Shown here: piece after piece, positions 11,321 to 53,961 of the stretch | How positions within the stretch are numbered: position 1 is the first letter of the stretch | Layout: each line of letters begins with the position of its first letter | Origin: Lunularia cruciata | Lineage: Eukaryota; Streptophyta; Marchantiopsida; Lunulariales; Lunulariaceae | Assembly (NCBI GenBank): GCA_948567375.1 | Contig: OX419756.1 | Span: forward strand, 70,818,333-70,882,332 | DNA: 64,000 nucleotides | Direction: 5' to 3' | Notes under the pieces: model-generated | The model's input: the letters and a program-made list of their open reading frames with translations, nothing else | What the model was told of the DNA's origin: nothing | Database searches by the model: none | Program-made: the position numbers and the translations under genes

Positions 11321-11329
11321 ACTTTGTCA

Positions 11330-13040
11330 CGCCATTTGTAGTTCCGCATCTAGATGCTCGGACACTGGAGTTCCAGTGATGGTAGTTAGAGTTATTCTAG
11401 CTGTTTCTCAGGGACTACTTTCCGACGGTTAGATTTCGTGTTCGGGGTACTGACTTCACGGTGGGGCCCACCGTCACTTTGCACCGTTTGCACCGTTTGC
11501 ACCGTCGAGTGTGCCGTCAGCGGGACCGTTAGGGTTTCAGGGCTAGCTCGAGTCCAGGGGGTATAGTTTCGAAGTGAGCTCCAGAGAGCTCACTTCTCTG
11601 ATGTTGAGCCTTCGAGTTCCTGGCTATGGTGGACAGAGGCCGGCGAGCGTCACCTGGATTCTCTATGCTTGAGTGGGTGTGGCTTGACTGTAATCAGTGC
11701 CCAGTTGTTGGCAGTTTATAGAGTGACAGATCAAGTACTGATCTGAGTTGAGTTGAGTTGAGAATGTTAAGCAATCTGATTACATCAGAGAAGTGAAGTC
11801 AAGGGGAAATCGGGTGCAGGAACGTTGAGTGTTGGTGGTATCTCCAAGCTCGGTGGATCGTGGTAGCTCGATTCAGGTTCTGTGTTTCCCTAGTGTGCAG
11901 AAGCTCGTGTAGTTGATGCAAATCTGGCAGTTAGGCGGACGGTGTGCGGAAGCGCTGGCCAAATTTCGAGCAAACAAGGAGCAATTTTCGAGCAGTGTTG
12001 TGATTTTGAGCTCAGGAGGTGAAGGCAGGACCAATTTGCTGCGAGTTGGGCTCAGAAAGTGAAATTGAAGGTGGAGTTGGAAAGCTCTTCTCATGAAATT
12101 GTGATTTGGAAAAACCCGTTTTGTCAATTTGGCTCGAGTGGAAAGTTAGCGGGGGATTTGGCGGACATCCATCTTTAGGGTTTACGTCAGATGTTACGTC
12201 AGATTTACGTCAGATTTTGGGCCAGAATTGGAGGAGTTTCGCTGTTTGGCCAGATTTGGAGAACTTTCGCTAGTTTGGAGGAGTTTCGCAGATTTGGAGA
12301 AGTTTCGCCAATTTTGGAGGAGGTTCGAAGTGGCAACAAGAAAGGCCTCATTTGGCTGAATTTCGGCATTTAGAGGCTTCGAGGCATAGGGCTGTGGGCT
12401 ATGAAGGCCTAGAAGGGCCAGAAGGGCCAGCAAGCCAGCTTGCTGGCGTGAGGCTAGCTAGTTTAGTGTAGATCTTGGTCATTGGTTGGCAAAATCTGCC
12501 TTTCTTGCTAGATTGTGCGCAACAGGGTTTGACCCCTAGATCTCTTGTTCCTAGACTGGTGCCCTAGCCAACTGGTCCACCCTCACTTGTTGTCATAGTG
12601 ACTGTGCCACTGTTATCTATACACATGTAGCTTTGGCTAGGAGAGGCAGTTTGATCCCATTCTTGGTGATCCTGGTAGCTTAGGACTTAGATACGAACTA
12701 CTCTTATGTCAAATGCCAAATGGTGGTAGAGTCAGTCCCGTGTTGTGTTATGAGATGGAGGGTTTTCGTTTAGATTTCTTGTGATTGGATCCCCTCCATT
12801 CTCTGCTTCCTGTTTGTGCACCACGTTTGTGTGAGGTGCCTTGACTTTTGAGCGTTGGTGCTCTGGTGTGCTCTCGGTGGTGAGGCTGGAGTGATGACCA
12901 GTCAGACTACCTTTGTTTCTCTCCGGTGAGGCAGGAAGTGATGACCTGCAGACCGTGAGAGTGCGTGTTATGATGGCAGGTTACAGGTTGCCCTTCCCCT
13001 AGTGTAGTTATCTCGGTTAGAGTTACATTAGTGGGTGGTG
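11330..13040 (+). repeat. LTR-like and leader region of element M
   Basis: This non-coding stretch precedes gag. It includes a threefold GCACCGTTT-type repeat near 11480, a (GAGTT)n run near 11745 and long G+C-rich segments. Position suggests 5' LTR plus leader, but no second copy and no clear primer-binding site were found, so the LTR/leader boundary is unresolved. Confidence 0.45.
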
Positions 13041-13049
13041 TTTTAGTTG

Positions 13050-14450
13050 GTGTTGGCACGCGGTGGTGTTGGCACTTGGTGGGGCACTTGCGGTTGCGAC
13101 TTGCTGTTGCAGTTGGTGGTTCGGGTTTGTTGGTGTGGTTACTTTGTCACGACGGAGTTCTTTGGAGATTCCAGAGGAGTTAGCCCTGCAGTACGCAGTG
13201 GGTTTACTCGGAGTGGTGCTCGGTATCAGCCTGTATCTCAGGTCCCAATGAGGGAGGAGATTGACTCTGAGTTGGAGTTCGACACAGGAGCTGATTCAGT
13301 TGAGAGTGCACTTGGTGTGTCCGCACCGTTGTTGTGGGACATGGACGAGATTTATGGGGCCTCCAAAGGCCCTAGGCGTTACTCTGGTACAGTGGGTACC
13401 ATTGAGTTGGATGACTTCATCTAGGAGTTTGATAGTTGGTGTGATCTGCAACAGATGCGGAACCCGACTTTGTTCACACCCTTCATGGCATGGAAGGGGT
13501 TGTTTCAGCACTTGGAGGGTCCACCGATGGACGACTACCATGAGTTCAGGAGAGCTCATTTGGAGGAGATTGAGTTATGGAGACAGTATTGGTCTCCACA
13601 CTATGTCTCCATCACTTCAGGTTCGGTGGCCAGGAGTAGGTCGGCTGTACCTACGCGTTCTAGCTCGAGTAGTGTTGGTGGAGCTAGTGGAGGTGCACTA
13701 GCTGGAGATAGTGCTACTACGAGTGGAGGTACCGCTGCAGGAGGTGGTGTGGTACCGGGGTTTAACCCCATGGTTGAGTTCTTCCTATGTTTGAGGCAGA
13801 ACTACCAGGGAGTGCGGACTGACAAGCTGAGGAGCTTGCAGGAGTTCCAGCGGAAGGCTGGAGAGAGCCTACGCGAGGCATACACTCGCATGAGGCGGCT
13901 GATCAGTTTCACTCAGGGAGTTACTGAGGCCCAGGCAGTCCAGTTTTGGTATGGGATACTGGACAGGGAGTTGCGACGTAGAGTTCGTGATGCTACGTTG
14001 TTGCAGGCTACTTCGCCCACTTTGGCAGTAGTCTTTGGTTTGGCTGAGCGTATTGAGCTCAACATGGTGGAGGAGAGAGTGGTGACATCTGGATTTGGTA
14101 GAGAGACCTCATCCATGGTTGTGACTTCTTCTAGAGTGCAGCAGAGTGCACCACGCCCAGTTGGGTTTCGAGGACAGGGTGGACAGCCCAGATCCTATGG
14201 AGCGAGTGGAGGGCCTAGTGGAGTTAGACCCTTACCCTCATTTTCGGGTCAGCAGCAGCCAGTGAGTGGTGGTGTTGCTTGTTGGACTTGTGGTGGACCT
14301 CACCATAGGAGAGAGTGTACTCAGGGCAGCGGACCTGATACCTCTGGTGCATCACAGCCAGCACAGAGGCAATGTGAGCACTGCCATAGATTTGGTCATA
14401 CTAGTGACCGGTGTTTTGACCTACACCCGGAGTTACGGAGTGGTAGGGCT
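13050..14450 (+). other. Element M gag region with CCHC zinc knuckle
   Basis: A retrotransposon gag-type core (about 13.75-14.08 kb; ...SLQEFQRKAGESLREAYTRM...) is followed by a Gly/Arg-rich stretch and two Cys-rich motifs. The second, CEHCHRFGHTSDRC near 14.37 kb, is a canonical CX2CX4HX4C knuckle used for RNA packaging. The following 0.8 kb is a Gly/Ser/Ala-rich linker with a short coiled-coil-like segment (IEQLEQRLASMA). Confidence 0.75.
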
Positions 14451-15239
14451 GCTATGGCAGGTAGTAGAGGAGCTCCAGTTCATGGAGGACGAGGTGGTAG
14501 AGGTGGTGGTAGAGGATCTACACCTAGTAGGGGTGCAGTACCTGCCCTTACTTCTGACACAGCTATGGCTACTCGGATTGAGCAGTTGGAGCAGAGATTG
14601 GCTAGTATGGCTATTGCTCATAGGAGATCAGATTCGGGTGCTGAGGCTTCCACCTCATATGCTGGTGATAGAGATGCTTTGGACTTCATGTGCGGAGCAG
14701 CACAGGTGGATGCATCTGCAGCAGTGACTAGGAGTGCAGTACGTGCTCCAGAGCCTAGAGGAGCATCAGTGGAGTTGGACCCACAGAGAGGAGAGGTTGG
14801 GAGACAGGTCAGACTTCCCCAATCTTTCACGCTATCTGAGGCATTGCAGACGACATCCATGGTTCCTAGACGTCCCAGTGCAGGTGTGGTAGGTGGTGAT
14901 GGAGTACTTGATGGAGTACCTGCTAGTCAGCCACTTGCTACTACACAGACTGAGTCTAGCATGATGTTGGGGGCGGCTCAGCTGATTATGCGGCATCCTT
15001 TATTTTCAGCCAGTGACATGTTTACATTGGGAGTGGACCCAGCCCCAGTGTTCCGGTTGGCTGCCATGTTGTGTGAGAGTAGGGATGGTGCAGTTCCCAC
15101 TACTAGAGCAGAGGTGGTTGGTAGTGGAGCTGACTTGGTTGAGGAGCATGGGATCCGTTCAGCGACCAGTGGTTTATGGCAGGCAGCAGCGGCTAGACTG
15201 GAGGAGTTGCCAGCTAGACCGGCCTTTGAGAGAGCGCGG

Positions 15240-15640
15240 TTTACACCTGGTGTTGTCCTATTGGATAACCAGAGGGGGATCTTTTGTTTGGTAGGACCTT
15301 CAGGGAAGGTCTATACACCACAGAGAGTCTTGTTAGACTCTGGTGTGCAGCCCCTTATGTTGGGGAAGGCTGCAGTTGTTGGTCTGGAGTTACGGAAGAC
15401 CGATGTGGAGAGGTGTCCATTTCAGATCCAGACATCTCTTGGTGGTGGTTCGACACAGTACATCACATGTGGAGAGCTTGTTGTCCAGGTTCAGCCTGGT
15501 CATCCAACTGATAGCTCGGTGGTGAGAGCTCAGGCTATTGCGACGATAGCTGAGTCCTATGATGTGCTAGTTGGGGGAGCAGTGTTATACCTTATGGGTT
15601 TCAGTATTGACTATTGGGAGGAGACAGCCTCTTATAGACC
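15240..15640 (+). other. Element M aspartic protease (retropepsin-like)
   Basis: VLLDSG near 15.33 kb is the catalytic Asp-Ser-Gly signature, followed by a beta-rich region ending in DVLVGGAVL, as in Gypsy proteases. It lies directly before the methyltransferase. Confidence 0.65.
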
Positions 15641-16040
15641 TGGTTGGCAGTCTGGTGAGGGACGGGTATGTCGCCTACAAGTACGCTTTAGTAGTGGCAG
15701 TCTTGGCTCACTACAGTCCGGGACCATGGCAGCATCAGTTTTAGCTTTCAGCGGTGCAGTTACTTGGCCTGGTGACTTGTTGGAGGGGAACGCCCATGCA
15801 GAGGATACTCCAATACCAGAGGAGATCACTCGGCTATGGAGTACGAGTGGGATTGTTCCATCCACCTTGGATGTTCCATTGTGGAGTTCAGAGGAGGCAT
15901 TGCAGCAGCATGCAGATCAGTTGGTGCAGCAGGCTTGGAGTGGAGCCTTCGTACCATCAGGGGATGAGTGTGAGGATGAGCCTCCAGAGGCGATTGCTTT
16001 GACACCTCTGGATACCACACTCATTGCTTGGCAGTATCCA

Positions 16041-17010
16041 GTAGAGGGGATATGCCTATTGGAGTTGTTTGGTGGGATCAGCACCGGACTAGCTGCGGTA
16101 TTACAGGCGGGTATCCGAGTACAGAGGTACTTGTATGTAGAGAGAGATGAGACTGCTAGGCGAGTCTCTCTACATCATGTGGCACACTTGGCCTATCGGT
16201 ATCCGGAGTTATTACCGATGTCAGCAGTCAGAGGTTACCAGAAGGCCTTACCAGGAGACATTTCCTTACTGGGGGCGCATGACCTAGAGAGACATGGGCC
16301 TGTTCACTTGGTGATTTCTGGATGGCCATGTCAGGGACATACACGTGCGGGCCGCGGTTTGGGTCTTCAGGATCCTCGTTCTGGTGTGTTTTGGGAGATG
16401 TTACGGATACTACGACATCTCCAGGTTCATCAGTCTGTTTCTCCAGCTTACCTTTTGGAGAACGTTCCATTGATGGGTGATTCTCGCACTAGAGTGGTGG
16501 CGAGTACACATCAGGTCCATTCATGGATGGGACCTGCTGTATTGTTAGATGCAGCCAGAGTGGGATCACGGGCTCATCGTCTTCGTCTTTGGTGGACAAA
16601 CCTCTTACCCAGAGAGGTTCTACAGCGTGCTTATGATGGGATTCAGCGACTGGACCACATTCTTGTTGATGATATCTTGGATGTTGGGCGTCAGTCTCAG
16701 ACAGTGGTAGTGGCTGATAGGTCACCCATGGCAGTGGTGAACCTAGTTGGACAGCCTAGAGCTGCATTTCCCACACTCATGAGTTTCCCAGGCTCTCATG
16801 CTTTTCGAGAGGGAGGACCTGGACTTGTTTGGGACTCACAGTTACAGCAGTTGGTGGAGCCCAATGCTGATGAGAGAGAGCGGGCGATGGGTTTTTGCAC
16901 CGGTATTACTGCTATTCCAGCAGTGTCAGAGGCATCCAGGCGTCAGGTGTTAGGTCAGGCTATGGACCTAAACTGTTTGACCTGGATTGTGAGCCTTGGT
17001 TTGGCAGAGC
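16041..17010 (+). other. DNMT3-like C5-cytosine methyltransferase domain inside element M
   Basis: Motifs appear in the standard, non-permuted order. Motif I is LLELFGGISTGL (near 16.06 kb, SAM binding). Motif IV is SGWPCQG, with the catalytic Cys codon at 16329-16331. Motif VI is LLENVPLMG, with Glu at 16458-16460. Motif VIII is SRAHRLRLWWTN (near 16.56-16.60 kb), a motif IX-type helix is ERAMGF (near 16.88 kb), and motif X is RRQVLGQAMD (near 16.94 kb). Spacing and details (FGGISTGL, AAR.GSRAHRLRLWW, RERAMGF, RQVLG) resemble DNMT3 (FDGIATGL, AKEVSAAHRARYFW, MERVFGF, RQRLLG) more than DNMT1, CMT or permuted DRM enzymes. The reading is continuous with the protease side of the same coding region, so this is a domain of the element, not a separate host gene. 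Function (methylating element or host DNA, or recruiting silencing) is inference. Confidence 0.88.
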
Positions 17011-17499
17011 AGCGTAGGATGCGCTTGATAGGCATCACCACTCGGACACTTGTGAGCCCTGTGCCTATCGAGACGATTCAGGCACATGCTAGGGGCGATG
17101 GACCGAGTGGACATGGTATTCTTGGGACACATCCAGTAGCTACTAGGGAGAGTGGTCTACTTGGAGTCCATCCAGGTGAGCGTGGGCTACTTGGATTACA
17201 CCCTTGGTCCACATGGGATGCAGCCAAAGGACGTATGGAGCTTGCAGCCAGAGTGGAGGGAGTTTTTCACACAGAGGTTGGGACCTCTAGTGGTCGGGAG
17301 CATGACACCATTGCTCCCAAGGGCCCAATATAGCAGCCAGTCAGTACGTCTTCCACTCCTACTACAGTTACAGAGGATACTTGGGAGCCAGATCTTGGAC
17401 CCAAGCTTACTGGAGAGGAAAGACGGAGGGTTTGGAGGTTCTTGAGGAGTCACACGAGTTGTTTTGCCTTCAGTATGAAGGATTTGGGTGCTCTGAAGG

Positions 17500-18800
17500 G
17501 ACCTGGTATACGGATTGAGCTGACTAGCGACACACCTGTTTTCCGACGTCCTTATCGATATAGTGAGATGGAGAGGACATTGATTCAGAGCCGGAGTAGT
17601 GACCTTTTTGAGGCTGGTTTGGTGGAGATTTCACATGGAGAGTATGCATCAGCGACAGTGATGCCAGCCAAGAAGGATATGCATGGCAACTATACAGATA
17701 GGCGGATGTGTGGAGATTACCGTCCTATCAACCGACAGACCAGGGCTGATCGGTATGCCATGCCTACACCGGAGGAGATTTTTGATGTGATTGGGCATGC
17801 AAAGGTCTTCAGTACTTTGGATCTTCGAGCGGGATATCATCAGTTGCCGATCAGGGAGGAAGATAAGTCCAAGACAGCATTTTGGGCTATTGATCCTCAC
17901 GGCAAGGATGTGTTATATCAGTGGAGATTCTTACCATTTGGGTTGAAGAATGCTCCTGCTGAGTTCTAGAGGGTCATGGATAGGATCCTAGCTGGACTGG
18001 ATTTTGCTCGGTGCTATATTGATGACATTTTGGTGTATAGCACTACTGTGGAGGAGCATGAGAGACAGTTGTTGGAGGTGTTTGAGAGGTTGAGATCTCA
18101 TGGACTCAAATTACATCATGGGAAGTGTAGGTTCTTCCATGAGCAGGTTGAGTATTTGGGTCACACTATCTACCCCGGAGGACTTGGTGTTCAACAGACC
18201 AAGGTGGAGGCTATTGCACGTATTCCTCGGCCTACGGATGTGAGCAGAGTGCGAGCATTCCTTGGGTTGGCAAACTTCTATCGCCGCTATGTTAGAGGAT
18301 TTAGTGCCATTGCCAAGGCCTTGACGAAGCTGACGAAGCTTACACAGGAGTGGTGTTGGGGAGATGAGCAGGAGAGAGCTTTTGTAGAGCTCAAGGAGAG
18401 GTTGACATCTGCTCCTATTTTGAGGAGACCGATCAGGGGACGACCATTTCAGGTTCACACTGATTGGAGTATGTTGGGGCTTGGAGCGGTGCTCACCCAG
18501 CATGATGATGAGGAGAAGGAGTTTGTGGTGGCCTATGCTAGTCGCTCCAACAATTCAGCGGAGGCGAAGTATAGTTCATATGAGGGAGAGTGCTTGGCAG
18601 CAGTTTGGGCAGTAGCACATTTCCGATGTTACCTATTTGGTAACCCCTTCACTCTCATCACTGATCATCAGCCGCTGAAGTGGTTGATGGAGTCCGACAA
18701 GCTTTCAGGGAAGCTTGCACGATGGGCTCTGATTTTACAAGAGTATGATTTCACGGTTGTTCACAGACCTGGAGTGGTGAACCATGATGCAGATGGGTTG
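17500..18800 (+). other. Element M reverse transcriptase and RNase H
   Basis: The RT fingers and palm include MCGDYRPIN, FSTLDLRAGYHQ, LPFGLKNAP and the catalytic YIDD box near 18.02 kb. The Gypsy connection (FLGLANFYRRYV) and RNase H (VHTDWS..., ITDHQPLKWL) follow. Domain types and order identify Ty3/Gypsy. Confidence 0.85.
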
Positions 18801-19089
18801 AGTAGAAACCCATGTCCCAGCCAGCAGGATCAGACCGGAGCACGTTGGCATGGTGAGACAGATGAGGAGATGGTGCCAGGTTGGCATGCATCGGCCTTTC
18901 TGTGTATATTTGCAGAGACTTTGGTGGTATCTCTCTCAGCGCATACAGGAGGAGTTATTGAGGTGACAGATCCAGAGAGTGAAGATATTGGTACAGTTCA
19001 GTGAGACATTCATGATGATGTCTTAGTGATGGACTATCTTCGCACTGGTGTTGTGGGTGGCACAGTTGGGGCCAAGGAGAGAGACCGTG

Positions 19090-19950
19090 TTCTTCAGCGA
19101 GCCAGACGGTTCAGATTGGAGGGTAGACACCTTTTGCGTGTATGGGAGGATGGTAGAGTGCGAGTAGTACCACTTCCATCACAGAGACCACAGTTGGTCC
19201 GTCATGCTCATGAGGAGCTAGGACATTTTGGAGTAAAGCGTACATATAGCTTACTCCAGAGTCATTATTGGTGGCGCGGTATGCAGACCGAGGTACAGTA
19301 GTTTGTTGCCAGATGTGTGGTTTGTGACCGAGTTAGAGCATCATTCAATGCTCCTACGCCACAGTTACACCCATTACCTATCATGGGATTGGGTTACCAT
19401 TGGAGTTTGGACTTTGCCGGACCTTTACCGCTGACTGTGAGACATCATCGGTATGTTTTGGTGATGGTGGAGCACTTCTCCAAGTGGATTGAGTTGGTGG
19501 CACTTCCTGACAAGTCTAGTGAAGGGACAGCTTACTCGTTCCTGGATCGAGTTCTTAGTCATTTTGGTGCACCAGCTGAGGTTTTGACTGATCAGGGTAC
19601 AGAGTTCTTGGGAGAGTTTCAGGTCTTGTGTGACAAGGCTTTGATTGATCATCGTACTACATCCCGAGATCACCCTGAGGCAGATGGCTTAGCAGAGAGA
19701 GTGGTTCAGACGGTGAAGAGAGGATTGCGAAAGTATGGTTTGCAGAGAGGCCACTTGGGAGATTGGGATCTCCAGTTACCTTGGTTGGCCATGGGCTATC
19801 GGTTCAGCCGGCAAGCCTCCTTAGCATCCTTCTCTCCATACTTTCTACTCTATGGACGAGATCCAGATTTACCTGTAGCCATTCGTCGAGATGCTACTGT
19901 AGTTTTGGACTTGGATGACCCTGATGTATGGATGAGCGCATGTTCTCAGC
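19090..19950 (+). other. Element M integrase
   Basis: An HHCC zinc-binding region (HAHEELGHFG ... CVVCDR) is followed by the DDE core: LDFAGP, LTDQGTEFLG and DGLAERVVQTVKR. A basic C-terminal region continues to about 20.25 kb. Confidence 0.85.
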
Positions 19951-20306
19951 GGGCAGAGATCTTTCAGAGAGTGATGCCGATGGCCTTCGAGAACTTGGCG
20001 ATTGCTCAGCATAGAGATACTTTACGCTATGCTACCATTCGAGGAGGAGGTTATAGACCCTCGATCCGTTGATTTCATCCAGGCGACTATGTATATCTAC
20101 AGCAGACAGCACCGACAACACTTGATGTTTCTACAGGCCGCACTATCTTGAGAGTGCGCGAGGTTTTGCCATCTGGAGTCTTTGTGTTAGAAGGACGTGA
20201 TGGTGTTGTTTGGAAGGATCATGTGCGCAATTGTGCGCCATGCCACCTTCCAAACATTGATGGTACTATGGACCCAAGCTTGGCACTTGTACGTGCAGGC
20301 TTGAGG

Positions 20307-20441
20307 TGTATGTTATGTGGCTCTTCTGGTGGAGCTGCTACTATGTTAGTGTGTGATAGCTGTTCGAGAGGATGGCATATGGCATGTATGACTCCTCCCC
20401 TCATGGTGGTTCCTCAGGGACAGTGGTTATGTCCTAGATGT
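20307..20441 (+). other. PHD finger at the C-terminus of element M integrase
   Basis: The spacing is the C4HC3 pattern of a PHD finger: CMLC, then CDSC, then GWHMAC, and finally WLCPRC at the end. PHD fingers usually bind histone H3 tails. It sits where chromoviruses carry a chromodomain, after the integrase C-terminal region, so a role in choosing chromatin for insertion is a reasonable inference. Confidence 0.85.
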
Positions 20442-21960
20442 ACTTGACCTATAGCTAGTTCATTCTTTATATGGTATAGATTGCAGACAGGCGACTAACG
20501 ATGGGGCTCCATAGCACCCGGCCTCCTGATCTTTGCCCATTAGAGGGTATACCATATACTTAGAGTAGATGGCTATCTGGAGTTAGAGGGACCTAACCGC
20601 CAGCTAGGGGGGCGATTGTGGCACTTTAGAGTCTATGTATGACTTATGTGTGAGTTGTGCTTTTATAGTGTATGATGTTGACAGCGATGTATGTTGTGTA
20701 GCGATGTATATACGCACGACAACTTCACTTTGGTGCAAAATAAGAATGAAGTATAGCAGATCCTCAGTCAGTGCCGAGATATTGAACTCTGGCGTAACAC
20801 CTGAAGCATCCAAGTGATTTCTCAATCGATATACATATCTTAAAAGCCTCACGCTTTAATGTACTATTTGATAACGATATTTTTGAGCGTACGAATTGGA
20901 TATGGAAAATTTTTTTATGTATGTATGTATGGATAAGTAATTTATGTGCAAGTAGTGAAAATACTTTGTTTGGCTTGGATTAGCTAAGTTGGGATGGAGT
21001 TGTGGAGTTGCACAAGCATTATAGTAGCGAGATTAAGTAACAATAGTTGTTTGCGTAGGAGATACTGACAGTTGCAACTGGGGTTACTTTTACTACTGGT
21101 TCCTCCACAAGGAACTAGGTTTAAATGGGGAGATTTCGTGGAACCCAAGTCCAAATGGAGATATTGTATATTGTGATTGCATCTCCACTAGGGTACGGTA
21201 CCACGCAGAGCTTGTTTTCACGCTGACAAATGGGGAAATAGGAAGGAACTTGATCCAGCAAGTTGGACAAAATTGGATCACTCACACGGCATTATAGTAG
21301 CTAGATTTAGTGGCACTAGTTTGCTAAGGAGATACCTACAGTTGCAACTGGGATTACTTTTACTACTGGTTCCTCCTCAAGGAACTAGATAGTGTGGAAC
21401 CCAAGTCCAGATGGGGAGATGTATATTAGGGGGTTTCAATTTTATCCTTTTCGAGGTTCCAAAGGAATTCATAAAAAGTTTTATGGGTAACCCACAAATA
21501 AAAATTGTACGGGTACTTTTCCGTACAGATTTCACAGGTCATCAAATATTTACGGGTGCTTCGGGGTGTTCTGTACAACTTAAACGCTCATTAATAACAT
21601 CACTAATTGATTTTGAAATTTGGAAGCGCAAATGCTTTGGCAAACACGTTCATTATACCAAAAAGAAAACCACCATTCGAACAAACTTGCACCATTCACC
21701 ACAGGAAGGGAAAGGAGAGGGAAGACTTAGAAAAACTCAAATTTGCATGATACTTCATTGCCTTCCTCTCTCGAGTCCACTTGGCACATCTGTTTAGTTA
21801 AACGTTGATTAAACATTGACATCTCATCTAATCTAATCCAAGACACCAGTAAGCGATCATTGATGACCCACCAAACGTATGAATTGAGCTCTCCTGCTCG
21901 CAAATGACTTTTCACTACTTGTAACTTGAGTTACGGGGAGCATTCATTTCTTGAATACAA

Positions 21961-25124: not shown

Positions 25125-25545
25125 TGTAAAAGACCAAGACTGAGGAGAGAAAGACCAAGACTGAGGAGAGAAATAGGAGAATGGAAGCTCACATTGAGAC
25201 ACTTGAATGAGTGAAAACTCCAAATGCCTAGCATGAGCTTTGGCTTTGGTATTTATAAGTAGCATACAAGGCCTTTGAGAAGTTCCTCAAGAAGCTTCTT
25301 CAAGCCACTTTCTTAGAGTGCAAGCCAAGTTAACTAGGAAGCTTCTCAAGAAGATTCCTTCTAGAATCTGCCTACTTGGCATGCAAGCTAAGCTAGTAGG
25401 AAGCTTCTAGAAGCTACTTACTTGAGGTGCAAGCTAAGCTAACCAAAAAGCTTCTTGAGAAGCTTCCTAGCTACTTCCAGAATATTCTAGGCTAATTTGT
25501 CTTTGTTAGCCCTACTAACTTTGTTGCTAAACTCCATATTGTTAC
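25125..25545 (-). repeat. LTR of Gypsy-A (3' LTR)
   Basis: It reads TGTAAAAGACC at its low end and TTGTTACA at its high end. It carries a TATA box (minus strand, 25250-25257) and heat-shock-element pentamers upstream of it, including three contiguous perfect ones at 25399-25413. Confidence 0.85.
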
Positions 25546-28500
25546 ATATTTCTCCACTGCTTGTTGGTGACGTCCTCGTCGCCAGTGAAGCTTCAAACTC
25601 TTGGATGGCCGTTTGTGCATTCTGGAGGTGAGAAAGAGGTTCCCATGTGGCATCATGAAGGGGATACCCTTTCCAAAGGACCTTGTACTCCGTGTGTTGT
25701 CAACGGCCTTGTTGAATATGGCGACGTGCAAGGATATGATCAACTTTGTACTACTTATGATCAGTGATAGGGACAAGAGGAGGGGGAGGTTGGACTCGAG
25801 AGAAAAAGGAAGAGGGCTTAAGAACAAAGGGTTTCAACTTGGAAACATGAAAGACAGGATGGATATGCATATGACAAGGCAAGGCAAGTCGATAAGCAAC
25901 AGGAGAGACAACTTGGGTGACATCAAAAGGTCCTATCTAATTAGGGGCAAGTTTACAAACTTGGGTATCAAGTGGGAGAGGGAGATTACTAGAGGATAGC
26001 ATGACTTTATCACCAACTTCAAAGGTGAGATCATGACAATGGTGGTCCGCATATTGTTTTTGACAATTTTGAGCAACAAGGAGGTGAGATTTGGCTTGTT
26101 GGAGAGATTGGGATATAGTGGTCAAGAATGTTGAAGTATGAGGAACCTGAGATGGAGGCGGAATAAGAAGAGAATCTAGAACAAGCTGATCTTGGCCAAA
26201 ATTAAGAAAGAAAGGAGAAAATCCGGTGCTTGCCTGTTTGGAATTGTTATAGGCAAATTCTACAACTACAAGACATTCATCCCAATTGGTATGGTGGACA
26301 TTGACGAAGGCACACAACATATCCTCCAATGTATGATTTGCATGTTCGATTTGTCCATCAATTTGAGGATGATAGGCCATGGACAAAGCAAGCTTGGTGC
26401 CGAGTATCTAGAAGAGTGCTTGCCAAAACTTCTTGATAAATCGAGGATCACGGTCGGAGATGAGTACACATGGCATCCAATGATGCTTGAAGACATTGTC
26501 GAAGTAGATGTGCGCTAAGGTTGGAGCATCCACGATATCACAGGTTGGTGCCAAGTGGATTTGCTTACTAAGCTTATCTACAAACACCACGATTGTTGTG
26601 TATCCTTGCTTTGTCTTGGGCAAGGAGGTGATGAGATCCAAGCACACATGCTCCCATCGAGCGGATGGAATAGCGAGTGGTTGAAGGAGTCTACTCGGCT
26701 TCTAATTGTTGGCCTTGTTACGTTGGCAGCTCTCACACAATCAGAAAAATTCTCAAACATCTCGTGTCATGTTGGGCCACCACCATCGACATTAGAGGGT
26801 ACCCAAGGTCTTGTCCACACCCATGTGACCAACTATGGGCAAATCATGAGCTTCTTGAAGGCGCACAAGTTGAAGATCTCCTTTGGTTGGAACATAGATC
26901 ATGGAATAGAAGGCCCTCCTTGATGGAGAAGGTGTTGTACTCCTTGTTGCATGCTGTAAGGCAACCATGTACCATTTGGAAGAAGGGATCTTGTTGTAAA
27001 GTTGACTGAAACTCATTTTGTACCTTGGAGTCAATTGACATGATTGTAATTGCCACTATGATGAGAGGAAGAGACTTCAAATCAAGTCGTCATGATAAGG
27101 CATCAAGGATGACATAGAATCAACTTGGTTTGTACTCAAGTTTGATGTCAAAAAGTTGGAGTTGTTCCTCCCATTGATGATGTTGACTCTTCATGTGTTC
27201 CAAGTGTAAGGTCTGCAACAATGGTTTGTGATCAATTTGCATGATCACTTGTTTCCCCAAGAGGTAATGCCTCCATACCTTAGTGGCATATACCATTGCA
27301 AGTTATTCTCGATCTCAAGATAAGTAGTTTCTTTTGGCTGTATTGAGTCGGTGAGACACAAAGGCGATGGGATGTAGTCCATCTGGGAATTCTTGTTGCA
27401 ACACGGCTCCAATTGCAAAGTTAGAAGCATCAAAATCAACCACACATGGTAGATGAGGATCATACGGTTGAAGAATGGGCCTTGAAGACACCATATGTTT
27501 CAACTTTTGGAATGCTTCTTTGTGCTTGGTGGTCCACTAGAAGCTCGAGTCCTTCCCCAAGAGGTCAGTCAATGGTGCAGCCACATGAGCATAATAATGG
27601 ATGAACTATCGGTAAAAGCTAGCCAATCCATTAAATGCCCGTACTTCTATAGCATCCTTTGGAGTAGGCCAATCAATAATGGCCTTGATTTTCTCCTCTT
27701 CCATCTTGATCTCCTCTGATGAGATCTTGTCTCCCAAGAAGGTAACTTCCTTTTGCCAAAAGGTACACTTTGTCTTCTTGCAGTAAAATTTCCATTGTCA
27801 TAGTCATCTCAGGACTTCTCGTACATGATTCACGTGTTCTGCCTCTGTCTTACTAGAGATTAAAATATCATCCAAGAACACCACCACGTACCAATCCAAT
27901 AGTCCATCCAACACCCAATGCGTCTGATCCATGAAGATTGTTGGAGGATTAGTGAGCCAAAATGGTAGAACTCTCCACTCAAAATGCCCATACCTTGTGC
28001 AACATGCTGTCTTTTGCACATCCTCCCTATCAATGGGGATTTGCTAATAGCCGCTGCAAAGATCCAGCTTGGAACATATCGTGCTCCACTCAATTGATCA
28101 AGCAAGTCATCAATCTGAGGCAAGAGATATGCATTCTTCACTGTTTGCTTATTGAGCCCATGATAATCAATACAGAAATGAAGTCCTCCATCTTTCTTTG
28201 GAACAAATAGTACCGGTGCTCCCCAAGGAGAGGTACTATGTCGTATGAAGTCCTTCTCCAACAACTCCGTAAGTGTTGTTTGCAACTCCTCCAACTCCTT
28301 TGGTGAGAGCCGATAGATTGGTCTACTCACTGGAGTACTCCCTAGCAATAACTCAATCTTGAAGGGCATACCATGATCGGAGGGTAATCCCTTTGGCAGA
28401 TCATCCAGAAACACATCTGTAAATTCTTGAACTATTTGATCAACCATTGCTTGATGAGGCTCTTGGCTCTCCTCAGATTATCCTTGTGCAATCGACTTGA

Positions 28501-30150
28501 TTCATATTGCGAAAATAGACTTATCTTCCTTCAAAGCTTGCTCTTTGGCTATTTCACTAACAAACTTCCCATCTAGGGACTCATCTCTCTTCAAAGTTTG
28601 CTCCAGGTTGCCTTCCTAGCAAAATTCCCATCTTGGAGCTCCTTTCTCTTCAAGGCATGCTCTATGGCTACCTTCTCAACAAACTTCCCATTTTGAGACT
28701 GACTATTCTTAGGTGTCTTACTCAAAGGTGCCAGACAACCTAATATGAAATTCCTACCTTGGTGTTGTACTTGAATTTTTTGTCAGGTCCAATCAAATTG
28801 AACCTTATGATGTTCAAGCCAAGGTAGTCCTAGAATGACGTCATAGTGTAGAGGTGCCCCTACAAACCTCATACACTCCAAATACTCCTTCCCAATCTTA
28901 AAAGTAACAGGATGTGCAATACAAAATGCAGAACCCTATCTACCATCTGCCATCATCAATCTACTTCCAATCACTGGCTTGAAAAGAAAACCCAATTCCT
29001 TTCCTACTTGCATAGACATGCAATTCTTTGAACTTCTAGAATCAACCAAAATCCTACAACCCCGATTAGATATCGTACATTGCAAGTGAAGCAAACTTGC
29101 ATAGGTCGAGCCTTCTATCCCATTGGAACTAATCATGCTCCTTATAGGCGGCTCAAAATCTCCTATTGGGATTCTTTGTTTCCCTGATCATTCTGTTCCA
29201 CAAACTCCATATGGGCAACTTGTAGAGGTCGCCCATTCCTAAGTGGACATTTAGCAATGTGATGTCTAACTTGGCAACAATAAAAAAAATCTCCACTTTG
29301 TCATAGTCTTTCTCTATCCATTGTACCAAGTGGTCTCCATTGGATAACATCAATCTCCATTGGTGCCGATTCGTCCACCCGTGCATAGTGTACTGGTAGG
29401 CTTTGTGTAGGTTGAGGTCAAGACCAAGTTGTTGCAACCAAGGAATCAAACCGTTCAGCCAATTGCATGGCTTCTTCTATGTTTTGTGGCTCCCGCATGG
29501 TCATCTCCAATTTATTTTGTGACTTCAATCCTTGCACAAATCGATCCAGAACTTCACCTTCTTGGATATCTAGAATTTGCATGATGATATTCTAAAATTG
29601 TTTGATGTAGCCCCTTATTGAGCCAATTTGCTTCAACTCCGCCAATTTATCTCGTGCGGCTCGGGTGGCATTTATAGTTTGAAATTGACCAAGTATTGCA
29701 TCCTTGAATTCTGCCCATGTCAAAATTGGTGCAACAATCTGTCGTTCAGCTCACTCCACTCGGAATTGCCACCAAAGTTTTGCCACATCATCCAATTGGC
29801 TAGAAGCCAAGAGGATTTGTTTCCGTTCATCTGGAAGATTGGTGGCTTCAAAGTAACGTTTGTAGTCAAACACAAAATTCTCCATTGTGCTCAAAAGATT
29901 CTTGCCTTCAAACACCTTGGGTTTTGGAAATCAAATGTGATCTTCTCCATCTCAAACTAGCGCTCTCTCTATACGCTCTCTATACGTCGTTGTTAGTCTT
30001 GTTCATCCAACAATTGATTAAGGTGCTTGATTTGTTGCTACATTGCAAGGATAACGTCTGGTATTGCCGCCATAGCTACTACTCTATTCCACTACTCTCA
30101 ATTTATCTAATTGATTAACACATAGATGCAACACATCCACCGTTCTCCAT

Positions 30151-30461
30151 AAGGCCTTTGAGAAGCTTCTTAAGGAGCTTGCTCAAGCCGCTTTCTTAGA
30201 GTGCAAGCCAAGTTAACTAGGAAGCTTCTCAAGAAACTTCTTTCTAGAAGCCACCTACTTGGCGTGCAAGCTAAGCTAGTTAGAAGCTATTTACTTGAGG
30301 TGCAAGTTAAGCTAGCCGGAAAGCTTCTTGAGAAGCTTCCTAGCTACTTCCAGAATATTCTAGACTAATTTGTCTTTGTTATTTAGGCTAATTTGTCTTT
30401 GTCGTTAAGACAAAATTAGTAGGGCTTTACTAACTTTGTTGCTAAACTCCATATTGCTACA
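30151..30461 (-). repeat. LTR of Gypsy-A (5' LTR)
   Basis: It is homologous to the 25125-25545 LTR and ends at the CAATT target duplication. It shares the repeated AAGCTTCTTGAGAAGCTTCC-type palindromes. Confidence 0.75.
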
Positions 30462-30709: not shown

Positions 30710-31132
30710 TGTAAAAGACCGAAACCGAGGAGAGAAATAGGAGAATGGAAGCTCACATTGGGACACTTGAATGAGGGAAAACTCCAAATGCCTAGCATGA
30801 GCTTCGGCTTTGGTATTTATAGGTAGCATACAAGTCCCTTGAAGCTTCTCAAGAAGCTTCCTTGAGCCGCTTTCTTGGAGTGCAAGCCAAGTTAACTAGG
30901 AAGCTTCTCAAGAAGCTTCCTTCTAGAAGCCGCCTACTTGGCGTGCAAGCTAAGCTAGTTAGAAGCTTCTAGAAGCTTCCTTCTAGAAGCTACCTGCTTA
31001 GGGCGCAGGTTAACTAGTTAGGAAGCTTCCCAAGAAGCTTCTTAGATGCTTCTAGAATATTTTATGCTATTTTGTCTTATTATCTACTTCATAAGCTCGA
31101 CTAACTTTGTCGCTAAACTCCATATTGTTACA
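30710..31132 (-). repeat. 3' LTR of Gypsy-B
   Basis: 423 bp, TG...CA, near-identical to 35929-36351. TATA box (minus strand) at 30814-30821; heat-shock-element runs between about 30839 and 31066. Confidence 0.9.
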
Positions 31133-34100
31133 TATTCCCCCGCCGCTAGTTGGTGACGTCCTCGTCGCCAGTGAAGCTTCAAATTCCTTGATGGCCATCT
31201 GTGCATTCTGGAGGTGAGAAAGAGGTTCCCATGTAGCATCATGAAGGGGATACCCTTTCAAAGGACCTTGTACTCCGTATGTTGGTGACGGCCTCGTTGA
31301 ATATGGCGACGCGCAAGGATACGATCAACTTTGTACTCCTCATGATCATTGATAGGGACAGGAAGAGGGGGAGGTTGGACTCGAGAGGAAAAGGAAGAAG
31401 GGTTAGGAACAAAGGGTTTCAACTTGGAAATATGAAAGACAGGATGGATACGCATGTGACAAGGTAAGGCAAGACGATAAGCAACAGGAGAGATAATGTG
31501 GGTGATATCAAAGGGTCCTATCCAATTAGGAGCAAGTTTACGAACTTGGGTATCAAGTGGGAGAGGGAGGTTACTAGAAGATAGCATGACTTTATCACCA
31601 ACTTCAAAGGTGAGATCACGACGATGATGGTCTGCATATTGTTTTTGGCGATTCTGAGCAACAAGGAGGTGAGATTTGGCTTGTTGGAGAGATTGGGATA
31701 TAGTGGTCAAGAATGTAGAAGTATGAGGAACCTAAGAGGGAGGGGGAGCAAGAAGAGAATCTGGAACAAGCGGATCTTGGCCAAAATTGAGAAAGAAGGG
31801 AGAAAATCCAGTGCTTGCCTGTTTGGAATTGTTGTAGGCAAATTCTGCAACTGCAAGACATTCATCCCAATTGGTATGGTGGACATTGACAAAGGCCCGC
31901 AACATATCCTCCAATGTACGATTGGCGTGTTCGGTTTGTCCATCAGTTTGAGGATGATAGGCCGTGGACAAAGCAAGCTTGGTGCCGAGTATCTGGAAGA
32001 GTGCTTGCCAAAACTTCCCGGTAAATTGAGGATCACTGTCGGAGATGAGTACACGTGGCATCCCATGATGCTTGAAGACATTGTCGAAGTAGATTTGCGC
32101 TAAGGTTGGAGCATCCATGGTATCACAGGTTGGTGCCAAGTGGATTTGCTTACTAAGCTTATCCACAAACACCACAATTGCGGTGTGTCCTTGTTTTGTC
32201 TTTGGCAAGGATGTGATGAGATCCAAGCTCACATGCTCCCAACGAGCGGATGGAATGGCGAGTGGTTGAAGGAGTCCACTCGGCTTCTGGTTGCTGGCCT
32301 TGTTCCGTTGGCAACTCTCACATGATCGGACAAAGTCTCAAACATCTCGTGTCATATTGGGCCACCACCATTGGCGTTGGAGGGTGCCCAAGGTCTTGTC
32401 CACTCCCATGTGACCAGCTATTGGTAAATCATGGGCTTCTTGAAGGCGCACAAGTTGAAGATCACCTTTGGTTGGAACATAGATCTGGTCTGCATGGAAT
32501 AAAAGGCCTTCCTTGAAGGAGAAGGTGTTGTACTCCTTGTCGCGTGCTGTTAGACAACCGTGTACCATTTGGAAGAAGGGATCTTGTTGTAGGGCTAACC
32601 GAAACTCGATATGAATCTTGGGATCAATTGACACCGTCGTAATTGCTGCCGCGATGAGAGGAAGAGACTTCAAATCAGGTTGTCGTGATAGAGCATCAGG
32701 GATGACATGGAACCGACCTGGTTTGTACTCAAGTTTGATGTCGAACAATTGGAGTTGCTCTTCCCATTGATGATGTCGACTCTTCATGTGCTCTAGGTGT
32801 AAGGTCTGCAACAATGGCTTGTGATCAGTTTGCATGATCACTTGTTTCCCCAAGAGATAATGCCTCCATACCTTGGTGGCATATACCATTGCAAGTTGTT
32901 CCCGATCTCGAGCAGAGTAATTTCTTTCAGCTGTATTTAGTCGGCGAGACACAAAGGCAATAGGATGTAGTCCATCTGGAAATTCTTGTTGCAACACAGC
33001 TCCAATTGCAAAGTTAGAAGCATCAAAATCAACCACACAAGGTAGTTGAGGATCATATGGTTGAAGAATAGGTCTTGAAGACACCATATGCTTTAACTTC
33101 TGGAATGCTTCTTCATGCTTGGTGGTCCATTGGAAGCTCAAGTTCTTTCCCAAGAGGTCAGTCAATGGTGCAGCCATGTGAGCATAATAGTGGATGAACC
33201 GTTGGTAAAAACTGGCCAATCCGTTGAACGCTCGTACTTCGGTAGCATCCTTCGGGGTAGGCCAATCAGTAATGGCCTTGATCTTCTCTTCTTCCATCTT
33301 GATCCCCTCTGATGAGATCTTATGACCCAAGAAGGTAACCTCCTTCTGCCAAAAAGCACACTTTGACTTCTTGCAGTAAAATTTCCAATGTCGTTGTCGT
33401 CTTAGGACTTCTCACACATGATTCATGTGTTCTGCCTCTGTCCTACTATAGATTAAGATATCATCTAAGAACACTACCACAGACTGATCCAATAGCCCCT
33501 CCAACACCCGATGCATCTGATCCATGAAGACTGCTGGAGCATTAGTGAGTCCGAAAGGTAGAACTCTCCACTCAAAATGTCCATACCTTGTACGAAAGGT
33601 AGTCTTTTTCACGTCCTCTCCTTCAATAGGAATTTGCCAATAGCCGCTACGAAGATCTAGCTTGGAAAAGTATCGTGCTCCACTTAATTGATCAAGCAAG
33701 TCATCGATCCGAGGCAAGGGATATGCATTCTTCACGGTTTGCTTATTGAGCCCACGGTAATCAATACAAAAACGAAGTCCTCCATCCTTCTTTGGAACAA
33801 ATAGTACCGGTGCTCCCCAAGGAGAGGTACTATGTCGTATGAAATCCTTCTCCAACAACTCTGTAAGTGTTGTTCGCAACTCCTCCAACTCCTTTGGTGA
33901 GAGCCGATAGATTGGTCTACTCACTGGAGTACTCCCTGGCAATAACTTGATCTTGAAGGGCATACCTCGATCAGAGGGTAATCCCTTTGGCAGATCATCC
34001 AGAAACACATCTGCAAACTCTTGAACTATCCGATCAACCGTCGCTTGATGCGGCACTTGGCCCTCCTCAGATTGTTCTTGTGCAATCGGCTTGATCCACA

Positions 34101-36032
34101 CCGCAAATACAGACTTATCTTCCTCCAAAGCTTGCTCTATGGTTGCTTCATTAACAAACTTCCCTTCTAGGGACTCATCTCTCTTCCGAGCTTGCTCCAT
34201 GGTTGCCTTCCTGGCAAACTTCCCATCTTGGGACTCATCTCCCTTCCAGATTCGCTCTATGGCTACCTTCTCGACAAACTTCCCATCTTGGGACTGACTA
34301 TTCTTAGGTGTCTTACTCAGAGGTGCCAGACAGCCTAATCGGAAATTCCTACCTTGGTGTTGTACTTGAATTTGGTGTCGGGTCCAATCAAATTGAACCT
34401 TATGACATTCAAGCCAAGGTAGACCCAGAATGATATCATAGTGTAGAGGTGCCACTACAAACCTCATACACTCCAAATACTCCTTCCCAATCTTGAAGGT
34501 AACAGGATGCAAGGTGCAGAATGCAGAACCCTTTCTACCATCCGCCATCATCAAACTACTTCTAATCACTGGCTTGATAGGAATACCCAATTCCTTTGCT
34601 ACTTGCATAGACATGCAATTCTCTGAACTTCCAGAATCAACCAAAATTCTACAACCCCGATTAGATATCATACCTTGCAAGTGAAGCAAACTTGCATAGG
34701 TCGAGCCTTCAATCCCATTGGAACTAATCAAGCTCCCAGTAGGCGGCTCGAAATCTCCTACTGGGATTCCTCGTTTCCTTGATCATTCCGCTCCACAACC
34801 TCCACTTGGGCAACTTGTCGAGGTCGTCCATTCTTGAGTGGACATTCAGCAATGCGAGGCCCCAACTGGCGACAATAAAAACAACCTCCATTTTGTCGTA
34901 ATCTTTCTCTATCTGCTGTGCCAAGTGGTCTTCGTTGGATAGCATCAATCTCCATTGGTACCGGTTCTTCCACTCGTGGTACTGGTGGGTTTTGTGTAGG
35001 TCGAGGTCGAGACCGAGTTGTCGCAACTAAGGAATCAAAATGCTCAGCCAATTGCATGGCTTGTTCTACATTCTGTGGCTCTCGCATGGTCACCTCCAAT
35101 CTGGTTTGTGACTTCAATCCTCGCACAAATCGATCCAGAACTTCACCTTCTTGGATATCTGGAATTTGCATGATGATATTCTGAAATTGTGTGATGTAGC
35201 TTCTCACTAAGCCAATCTGCCTCAACTCCGCCAATTTATCTCGTGCAGCTCGGGTGGCATTTATAGTCTGAAATCGACCAAGTATTGCATCCTTGAATTC
35301 TGCCCATGTAAAAATTGGTGTAACAATTTGTCGTTCAGCTCTTTCTACTCGGAATCGCCACCAAAGTTTTGCCACTCCATCCAATTGGCTAGAAGCCAAG
35401 AGAATTTGTTTCCATTCGTCTTGAAGATTGGTGGCTTCAAAGTAACGTTCACAGTCAAACACAAAATTCTCCACTGTGCCTGGAAGATTCTTGCCTTCAA
35501 ACACCTTGGGTTTTGGAAATCGAATGCGATCTTCTCCATCTCGAACTGGCGCTCTGTCTATCTGTTCTTGTCGTTGCTGGTCTTGTTCATCCAACAATCG
35601 AGTAAGATGCTCGATTTGTTGTTGCATTGCAAGGATAACATCCGGTATTGCCGCCATCGCTACTACTCTATTCCACTACCTGCAATTTATCTAGTTGATT
35701 AACACGTAGATACAACACGTCCACCGTTCTCCATAAGTTACAACTGGAAGTATCAAGGGTTCCTCTGACATAGTGATCATATGTAGAAAATCCTGCCCAA
35801 AGCGTGAGGTGATGAATTGTGTGAAATGATGCTTTGGTAATATTTGGACATGAAAGTCCCAATGGTTTGGCGGAAGTGGATTTGGTGGTCCATAAATTCC
35901 ATCCATCCCATTCCTGCTCTGATACCAATGTAAAAGACCAAAACCGAGGAGAGAAATAGGAGAATGGAAGCTCACATTGGGACACTTGAATGAGGGAAAA
36001 CTCCGAATGCCTAGCATGAGCTTCGGCCTTGG

Positions 36033-47352: not shown

Positions 47353-48096
47353 TGTAATACCAAGGGTTAGCCATATGATCTAGATGTGAAATTCGGTTTG
47401 GTAACATCTAGAATAATGGTATACATGATGGTCAAAATAGATCAGATAGAAGTATCACCAAAAGAGTACTTCTACTAATAGGGCAGAAACCAAAATAGAC
47501 TTGAGAACCTTAGAACCAATAGCTAGACATATGATTTAAAGGTGAGAATTGGTTTGGTAACATCTGGAAGGATGTTACACATGATGGACAAAACAGATCA
47601 GAAAGAGGTATCACCAAAAGGGGACTTCTACTAATAGAGTAGGAACCGAAATATGCCTGAAAACTTTGAAGGCAATTTTGGAGGCCTAAACGGATGAATT
47701 AGGCCTCGAAAATGTGCAGATTCCCCCCCCCCCCCAATGCAAGAAAGGCTGGCCTTCCCTCCCCCCTGGTTTGTCTCGTTGAGAGCTTTCCAACGGTACC
47801 TTACTCATGTGATTTTGAGATTCCTACAGGAAGATTCCCTAAAAGATTCCCTCCCATCAAAGCTCGTTTGACCAACCAGATAGGACCTAGACCAGACAGG
47901 TCACCCACCCAAGTAAGTAATCCAAGGGTGGAGCTTGTTGACATGTCACCTATCTGTGTCCTTAATCCTATGGTGGAGCTTCCTTGGAGGAGATCCTCTT
48001 TGTCTATATAATAAAGAGAAGGTGCTCCCTTGGGGCATCGAATGTTTGAGTGTGCAATCTGCGTTTTCTCTCTTCTCTTGTCCTCGGAGTATTACA
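47353..48096 (+). repeat. 5' LTR of Gypsy-C
   Basis: Begins TGTAATACC, ends GGAGTATTACA. It contains a poly-C tract near 47725 and a TATA-like TCTATATAATAAAG near its 3' third. Confidence 0.9.
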
Positions 48097-53219: not shown

Positions 53220-53961
53220 TGTAATACCAAGGGTTAGCCATATGATCTAGATGTGAAATTCGGTTTGGTAACATCTAGAATGATGTTATACATGATGGTA
53301 AAAATAGATCAGATAGAAGTATCACCAAAAGAGTACTTCTACTAATAGGGCAGAAACCGAAATAGACTTGAGAACCTTAGAACCAATAGCTAGACATATG
53401 ATTTAAAGGTGAGAATTGGTTTGGTAACATTTGGAAGGATGTTACACATGATGGACTAAACAGATCAGAAAGAGGTATCACCAAAAGGGGACTTCTACTA
53501 ATAGCATAGGAACCGAAATATGCCTGAAAACTTTAAAGGCAATTTCGGAGGCCTAAACGGATGAATTAGGCCTCAAAAATGTGCAGATCCCCCCCCCCCC
53601 AATAGAGGAAAGACTGGCCATCCTTCCCCCTTGGTTTGTCTCATCGAGAGCTTTCCAACGGTACCTTACTCATGTGATTCTGAGATTTCTACAGGAAGAT
53701 TCCCTAAAAGATTCCCTCTGATCAAAGCTCGTTTGACCAACCAGATAGGACCTAGACCAGACAGGTCACCCACCCAAGTAAGTAATCCAAGGGTGGAGCT
53801 TGCTGACATGTCACCTATCTGTGTCCTTAATCCTATGGTGGAGCTTCCTTGGAGGAGATCCTCTTTGTCTATATAATAAAGAGAAGGTGCTCCCTTGGGG
53901 CATCGAATGTTTGAGTGTGCAATCTGTGTTTTCTCTCTTCTCTTGTCCTTGGAGTATTACA
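53220..53961 (+). repeat. 3' LTR of Gypsy-C
   Basis: Same ends as the 5' LTR and directly preceded by the polypurine tract. It also carries the poly-C tract, near 53590. Confidence 0.9.

Follow-up and report, generated by a model that had tools for sequence, protein, structure and literature searches.

A DNMT3-superfamily cytosine methyltransferase encoded within an abundant Ty3/Gypsy retrotransposon family of Lunularia cruciata

The analyzed stretch of Lunularia cruciata DNA (64,000 nucleotides, hereafter the window) contains, at 11325-20721, a single damaged member of an abundant Ty3/Gypsy family, whose domain order is Gag, retropepsin (PR), C5-cytosine methyltransferase (MTase), a UAG CARYYA stop context, reverse transcriptase (RT), RNase H (RH), integrase (IN) and PHD finger (Table 1). 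The ORF1 frame carrying Gag, PR and the MTase is open for 1428 aa in copies L009, L023 and L028. Four additional in-frame stops were found in Pol of the window copy (17967, 19002, 19299 and 20070), and this copy is therefore defective. In addition, it lacks a duplicated terminal repeat, and its 4-bp target duplication is intact.

Table 1. Features of the MTase-bearing element, in window positions
Feature	Position	Strand	Basis or remark
Ty3/Gypsy copy, ends TGTC...GACA	11325-20721	+	alignment to other genomic copies; 4-bp flanks ACTT identical
5' target-site duplication ACTT	11321-11324	+	copy alignment
3' target-site duplication ACTT	20722-20725	+	copy alignment
Repeat A (A1)	11325-11782	+	second A after B1 in other copies
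ORF1 frame, Gag-retropepsin-MTase	13425-17333	+	stop-to-stop, 1302 aa open, TAG end
Two Gag CCHC-like zinc knuckles	14280-14318, 14373-14414	+	pattern match
Retropepsin catalytic LDSG	15333-15344	+	PR segment alignable to relatives from Marchantia and metagenomes
C5-cytosine methyltransferase domain	16041-17009	+	Pfam, phmmer, profile, fold search, motifs
MTase motif I, LELFGG	16059-16076	+	
MTase motif IV, WPCQG	16323-16337	+	Cys codon 16329-16331
MTase motif VI, ENV	16458-16466	+	
MTase motif VIII, HRLR	16575-16586	+	
MTase motif X, GQAMDLN	16953-16973	+	
In-frame stop context TAG-CAG-CCA between MTase and RT	17331-17339	+	comparison of copies
Reverse transcriptase	17514-18149	+	YIDD 18015-18026; Pfam RVT_1 in both halves; in-frame stop 17967
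RNase H	18330-18779	+	Pfam RT_RNaseH 4.4e-37
Integrase, HHCC-like zinc site and rve DDE core	19203-19901	+	Pfam rve 5e-14; in-frame stop 19299
PHD finger, Pol C-terminal end	20307-20441	+	Pfam PHD 3e-11
Polypurine-tract-like AGGGGGGCG	20606-20614	+	immediately 5' of B
Repeat B (B1)	20615-20721	+	adjoins polypurine tract; GC-A2-B2 then in other copies

Assignment to Ty3/Gypsy was based on the domain order, in which PR is followed by RT-RH ahead of IN, and on the short target duplication, which is exact in the window and, by eye, in 12 of the 14 copies with both flanks readable (three of four bases agree in L016, none in L015). The identical full LTRs of such elements are not present directly at both ends, and inspection by eye of the junction after A1, where a tRNA primer-binding site would be expected, showed no TGG start. 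Split direct repeats (A-coding-B-A-B), a DIRS feature, were found in 17 of the 20 fetched copies, and A2-B2 are missing from the window copy. A Pfam scan of six reading-frame pieces gave no tyrosine recombinase, a further DIRS feature, and detected an rve integrase core instead.

The 323 codons at 16041-17009 contain no stop and encode a C5-cytosine MTase. The profile check proposed in the initial annotation, which had been made from the letters of the window, returned a Pfam DNA_methylase match that passes the Pfam cut-off (6e-8), and the C5-MTase motifs that it had read here were located in the order I, IV, VI, VIII, X at 16059-16973. Its placement of the MTase between PR and RT was confirmed as to position, but not as a single uninterrupted frame, as the TAG at 17331-17333 intervenes. 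The motif order is unrearranged, as the DNMT3 type requires; the rearranged DRM order is absent, with motif I preceding VI and VIII, and neither of the CMT-type domains, BAH and chromo, was among the Pfam matches of the element frame. In a profile comparison with solved structures, DNMT3A (1.5e-20) and DNMT3B (4.7e-19) ranked on top, followed by plant-type DNA methyltransferase and DRM2 (2.7e-10 to 3e-8), HhaI (2e-6) and a DNMT2-type tRNA MTase (8e-6), and neither a CMT nor a DNMT1 chain was among the 55 matches at E<=0.01. Matching of the window MTase to DNMT3A by phmmer gave 1.6e-11, with the best DNMT3A matches spanning residues 4-189 only. The AlphaFold model had a mean pLDDT of 71.6, falling below 50 at residues 207-260, after motif VIII, and DNMT3A entries ranked first in the fold search (TM about 0.6). 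Moreover, N141 of ENV is invariant over 33 sequences and C97 and E140 are conserved in at least 90% of them, and the catalytic Cys and the Glu and Asn of ENV are kept in relatives at 46-75% identity. Judged from its sequence, the domain is a C5-MTase of the DNMT3 superfamily with complete catalytic motifs, and is predicted to be active.

Bursts of Ty3/Gypsy elements have been described for L. cruciata in the report of its 580 Mb assembly (PMC9985172). Our search of the 566-Mb genome (74 contigs) revealed at least 124 MTase copies on nine contigs with 97-100% protein identity, a lower bound because only 124 of the 13,397 first-look candidates were scored. The matches cover query residues 1-323 (1-322 in one), and roughly two thirds, by eye, have no stop inside the MTase. 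The MTase occupies an identical offset in 20 of 20 fetched copies, which are the best matches to the window and not a random sample; nine fetched copies aligned to the window in long collinear stretches, L012, L022 and L025 only partly. These collinear copies with their target duplications supply the further genomic PR-MTase-RT copies that the initial annotation had asked for, and bear out its reading of an MTase-bearing Gypsy element as opposed to a one-off chimera. Fragments of the family, some inverted, were also observed in or beside L022, L014, L015 and L028, which suggests nested insertion of the family into itself at these loci.

Variant counts were used to assess selection. In the MTase, variants seen once comprised 56 changing (50 missense and 6 stop) and 26 silent, and those in at least three copies comprised 6 changing and 13 silent (p=0.004; variants in exactly two copies, 10 changing and 5 silent, are omitted from the test). 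This set held 26 of 31 sequences, five of the ten extra loci having failed the gap-free full-length filter. For RT-RH (19 of 21 copies), the changing-to-silent counts were 79:38 among once-seen and 3:11 among shared variants (p=0.002, again omitting two-copy variants, 10:7). These ratios indicate that selection has kept the MTase and RT protein sequences. No sign of selection was seen in IN (18 of 21 copies), with three shared changing and no shared silent variants.

Single-copy C-to-T variants per site reached 9.0-16.1e-3 at CG, 7.3-15.6e-3 at CHG and 1.9-2.2e-3 at CHH, with A/T transitions at 0.2-0.9e-3 for comparison (each piece was counted in 18 to 21 of the 21 copies, after removal of those covering 90% or less of it). 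Decay at CG and CHG is thus some 4 to 8 times as fast as at CHH, and by this deamination test the copies are heavily methylated at CG and CHG, a pattern that host plant enzymes leave. CG depletion was rejected as a sign of self-methylation, since the observed/expected ratio is 0.48 in both the element and the rest of the window.

The TAG at 17331-17333 was found at the same position of the MTase frame in all 21 copies (the window and 20 fetched), followed by the CAR-YYA hexamer in 20 of them (L022 is the exception), and in three of the 21 it is the only stop of that frame between the MTase and the PHD region. Conservation among these copies is weak evidence by itself because they are recent relatives. 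In an independent element with 53% MTase identity (L062/L073), TAG-CAA-TCA closes ORF1, with RT continuing in the same frame. In L073, PR, MTase, RT, RH, IN and PHD share one frame. Read from the contig start, this frame contains no stop but the TAG at 3489 up to 6633, a position downstream of the PHD finger. Random decay as the source of the TAG was therefore rejected, as the stop is common to 21 copies, albeit of recent descent, and to an independent relative with the same hexamer class. Among 21 relatives listed, 15 terminate between the MTase and any RT match, although some of these ends may be contig or gene-model ends, and six read on towards RT without a stop (P0126, P0127, P0131, P0135, P0155 and P0161), five of them being gene models from which splicing may have removed it.

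In plant viruses, UAG-CARYYA is described as the signal for type I readthrough (PMC5382211), and in the element family the frame downstream of it is open in three of 21 copies and in L073. The element resembles the tobamoviruses of that account in having UAG, the same hexamer class and then an open polymerase frame. In plant RNA viruses, however, the stop sits in the replicase gene, whereas here it separates Gag-PR-MTase from RT, and readthrough is predicted. Because of this separation the MTase lies on the Gag side, and is probably made at the Gag level. Internal initiation downstream of the TAG may be an alternative to readthrough.

L062/L073 (CADCWO010000201.1) is complete from PR to PHD, with the MTase on the PR side (type I, below), and its contig is binned as an uncultured cyanobacterium. 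Further contigs of this bin match RT too, so the bin probably holds eukaryotic DNA, and a eukaryotic origin of the contig is more likely. The same probably applies to P0023 (named Obscuribacterales) and to P0204 (named Minisyncoccia).

In a first repeat scan, no direct repeat of at least 100 bp flanked the element, and the two families found lie outside it, at 22-24 kb. Extension of the other copies revealed the split repeats, and an ordinary LTR structure was rejected. These copies read A1 (about 455 bp), coding region, B1 (107 bp), GC, A2 and B2, and A2 is joined to B2 at the same place in 17 of the 20 fetched (one adjacent base differs in L009 and L023); in L010 other sequence follows A2, L012 is rearranged, and no A2 was found in L027. 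The integrated ends are TGTC, the start of A, and GACA, the end of B, with the 4-bp duplications flanking them. Of the 17 copies readable at the B1-A2 junction (all fetched copies but L012, L021 and L027), 14 carry the palindrome GACAGCTGTC unchanged, whereas L010, L013 and L017 each depart from it by a single base; CACGACAGCTGTCACG is identical in the independent element L073. Because B1 directly follows the polypurine tract, the LTR expected from reverse transcription is B-GC-A. Cutting both strands of a circle after CA would yield the observed ends, with GC lost at the outer ends and kept at the inner one. The split repeats around a palindrome suggest integration from a circle; the 127-bp end overlap of L073 may stem from repeat assembly and is no evidence of circular DNA.

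Foamy-virus integrase is reported to cut a palindrome at 2-LTR junctions, on both strands and just after CA (PMC1180852). The element shares with that system, as described there, the palindromic junction, the cut after CA and a 2-base 5' overhang, the last two predicted for the element. In contrast to the foamy-virus palindrome, which is formed by joined LTR ends, that of the element lies inside the RT-defined repeat and is inherited. For the absence of A2-B2 from the window copy, recombination between B1 and B2 after insertion and insertion of a 1-LTR circle stand about level. B1 and B2 are direct repeats of ~107 bp lying ~560 bp apart and both occur in 17 of 20 other copies, which favors recombination, but the ACTT duplication is intact under either course and the two are indistinguishable here.

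Relatives were found in Calypogeia fissa, Sphagnum troendelagicum, S. tenellum, Marchantia polymorpha, M. paleacea and Riccia sorocarpa (best 120 of 255 protein matches), and a second protein search (all 62 matches) added further Marchantia proteins together with Closterium and Sphagnum fallax. The chlorophytes Haematococcus, Monoraphidium and Scenedesmus appeared in this 62-match search and among the best 120 of 140 matches in another. No vascular plant was among the named matches listed, about a quarter of the proteins carrying names, and viral contigs gave a single weak match (33%). In a survey of 169 proteins of at least 600 aa, the MTase followed PR or preceded RT in 36 (type I: bryophytes, Closterium and relatives near 50% identity) and followed RH or preceded IN in 131 (type II), including all nine chlorophyte-named proteins; P0161 and P0178 were untypable. 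The complete order RT-RH-MTase-IN-PHD was seen in 90 of the 169 and PR-MTase alone in 29, the rest being partial. P0183 has the order MTase-RT-RH-IN at 31% identity and sits on a very long branch. P0161 has an MTase that groups with type II, but the RT behind it looks different (by eye), possibly a third arrangement or a nested insertion.

In the MTase tree (39 rows, 14 of them unlabelled as to type), one branch splits type I (9) from type II (16) (88/98; 96% of 200 bootstraps), and the window MTase groups with Marchantia, Calypogeia and one further protein (100/100). The 31-row RT-RH tree unites type II in one clade (86/96) and sets the 29 MTase-bearing rows apart from two MTase-less Gypsy elements of the window (100/100); its type I side consists of three bryophyte rows and P0183, and its two outgroups come from a single host. 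The simplest reading of both trees, moderately supported, would be one capture and one relocation of the MTase.

The term "DNMT3-like" here denotes fold and superfamily, because phage C5-MTases match the element MTase as well as or better than human DNMT3A does. Among nine references scored, four phage enzymes exceeded human DNMT3A by profile and five by the window sequence alone, and the phage family PHROG 116 covers MTase residues 3-317, nearly the whole domain (1.6e-17). The host DNMT3-like gene (two exons) gave 25.1 bits with the window MTase and host DRM 26.3 bits; by profile the values were 42.6 and 34.8 bits, the DNMT3-like gene lying far below the phage enzymes. Acquisition from a phage or bacterium instead of the host DNMT3 gene is thus a serious candidate, which we rate as somewhat short of probable. 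The six phage enzymes had been chosen from the best 20 of 343 phage matches, whereas the eukaryotic references were only three, two of them partial host genes, and bacterial MTases of known structure score below DNMT3 by profile. Moreover, in the accompanying tree the MTases of the elements fall into a single long-branched clade (100/100) with no firmly placed point of attachment. Host-DNMT3 origin as a proven fact was withdrawn, as phage enzymes score equally well; the earlier statement that DNMT3, and not DRM or CMT, is closest thus holds among solved structures but not as a claim of lineage. The candidate host genes are L049 (G000:C7 near 31989816) for DNMT3 and L052 (G000:C6 near 13140243) for DRM, the latter with its VI-VIII exon preceding the I-IV exon, as in DRM.

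The best joint explanation of the element, which we regard as fairly probable, combines MTase dose, cDNA methylation, circle integration and PHD targeting. Ribosomes would mostly stop at the UAG, leaving Gag-PR-MTase in excess over RT and IN, and the MTase would be packaged in the particle at a Gag-like dose. There it may methylate new double-stranded cDNA before or during insertion, such that the incoming copy would resemble methylated host DNA. The cDNA with its B-GC-A LTR would be closed into a circle, and IN would cut both strands after CA in GACAGCTGTC, so that a single step would leave two 3'-processed ends, each with a 2-base overhang. A 2-LTR circle would then give A-coding-B-GC-A-B, and a 1-LTR circle A-coding-B as in the window. 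Furthermore, the PHD finger after IN may steer insertion to chromatin. For the Klebsormidium element discussed below, no methylation was detected upon MTase expression in yeast, a result its authors call inconclusive (PMC5890265).

Alternatively, an active MTase might act on the host genome or on old copies, by self-limitation or by marking of insertion sites, and not on cDNA. The methylation footprint of the integrated copies and a PHD finger that could bring Pol to chromatin are in line with this, and slower retrotransposition to the benefit of the host is one role proposed in PMC5890265. However, the MTase is on the Gag side of the stop, away from IN and PHD, and the host, with DNMT3-like and DRM-like genes of its own, can leave the CG and CHG pattern itself; we consider such a role unlikely. 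Still less probable is that the domain serves mainly as a nucleic-acid-binding part of Gag with catalysis dispensable: its fusion to Gag-PR upstream of the stop, the poorly predicted region after motif VIII and the limited span of the DNMT3A matches would fit, but a binding-only role would not need the catalytic residues (Cys, and Glu and Asn of ENV) that divergent relatives keep. A chimera, contamination or assembly join as the source of the MTase-Gypsy fusion is contradicted by the copies on nine contigs, the intact target duplications and annotated bryophyte proteins with the same domain order, and was ruled out with near certainty.

The closest published case, close in kind, is KnitGypsy-Dnmt3 of Klebsormidium nitens, a Gypsy element whose polyprotein includes a DNMT3-related MTase without introns (de Mendoza et al., 2018, PMC5890265), which bears out the charophyte precedent mentioned in the initial annotation. 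Compared by description, it shares with the window family a streptophyte Gypsy setting, a DNMT3-related MTase within the polyprotein, purifying selection and DIRS-structured repeats, and differs in its host, a charophyte alga as opposed to a bryophyte. No Klebsormidium-named protein was among the matches listed in three protein searches. The dinoflagellate SymbioDIRS-Dnmt3 and SymbioLINE-Dnmt of the same paper likewise carry C5-MTases within retrotransposons, and SymbioDIRS-Dnmt3 is described with two domain orders and split repeats, as in the window lineage; these are DIRS (tyrosine recombinase) and LINE elements, whereas the window family uses a DDE integrase and is flanked by target duplications of 4 bp. 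The words PHD, Marchantia, liverwort, circular and split are absent from the main text of PMC5890265. With reference to the 2018 work, a 2025 paper notes that retrotransposons of streptophytes and dinoflagellates include DNMT3, and bryophyte or chlorophyte hosts are not named in the passage concerned (PMC12344493). A literature search of open-licence PMC papers found no published MTase-bearing retrotransposon of a bryophyte or chlorophyte. As far as this literature reaches, the members in bryophytes and chlorophytes, the two positions of the MTase domain and the PHD finger are new, as are the conserved UAG-CARYYA, the conserved palindrome and the link between split repeats and a DDE integrase that the target duplications provide.

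On a broader reading, put forward tentatively as possible but rather doubtful in its entirety, one MTase-Gypsy-PHD lineage would extend from chlorophytes to bryophytes after a single capture. In streptophytes, the MTase would have moved from Pol, between RH and IN, to the Gag side of a leaky stop, gaining a Gag-like excess; the DDE integrase would cut a circle at an inherited palindrome, and particle-borne MTase would methylate cDNA before insertion. If true, a single retroelement would unite a DIRS-like topology with a programmed stop and with a DNA methylase carried in its particle. Because cytosine methylation is the means by which plants silence retrotransposons, a high-copy element whose own methylase is maintained by selection presents a testable paradox. 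Marchantia is a genetic model with transformation and methylome data, and its annotated relatives of the element would open the question beyond dinoflagellates and charophytes. The conserved stop yields a concrete prediction on MTase dose, and split repeats combined with a DDE integrase reopen the old question of circles as integration substrates.

The window also contains MTase-less Gypsy polymerase regions at 26189-28348 (-), 31762-33942 (-) and 50627-52609 (+), two of which served as the RT-RH outgroups. The adjacent 5-kb repeats at 25150-30153 and 30714-35737, 88% identical, are probably two copies of an MTase-less Gypsy element. In addition, a 745-bp repeat pair (96% identical) was observed at 47352-48096 and 53219-53961.
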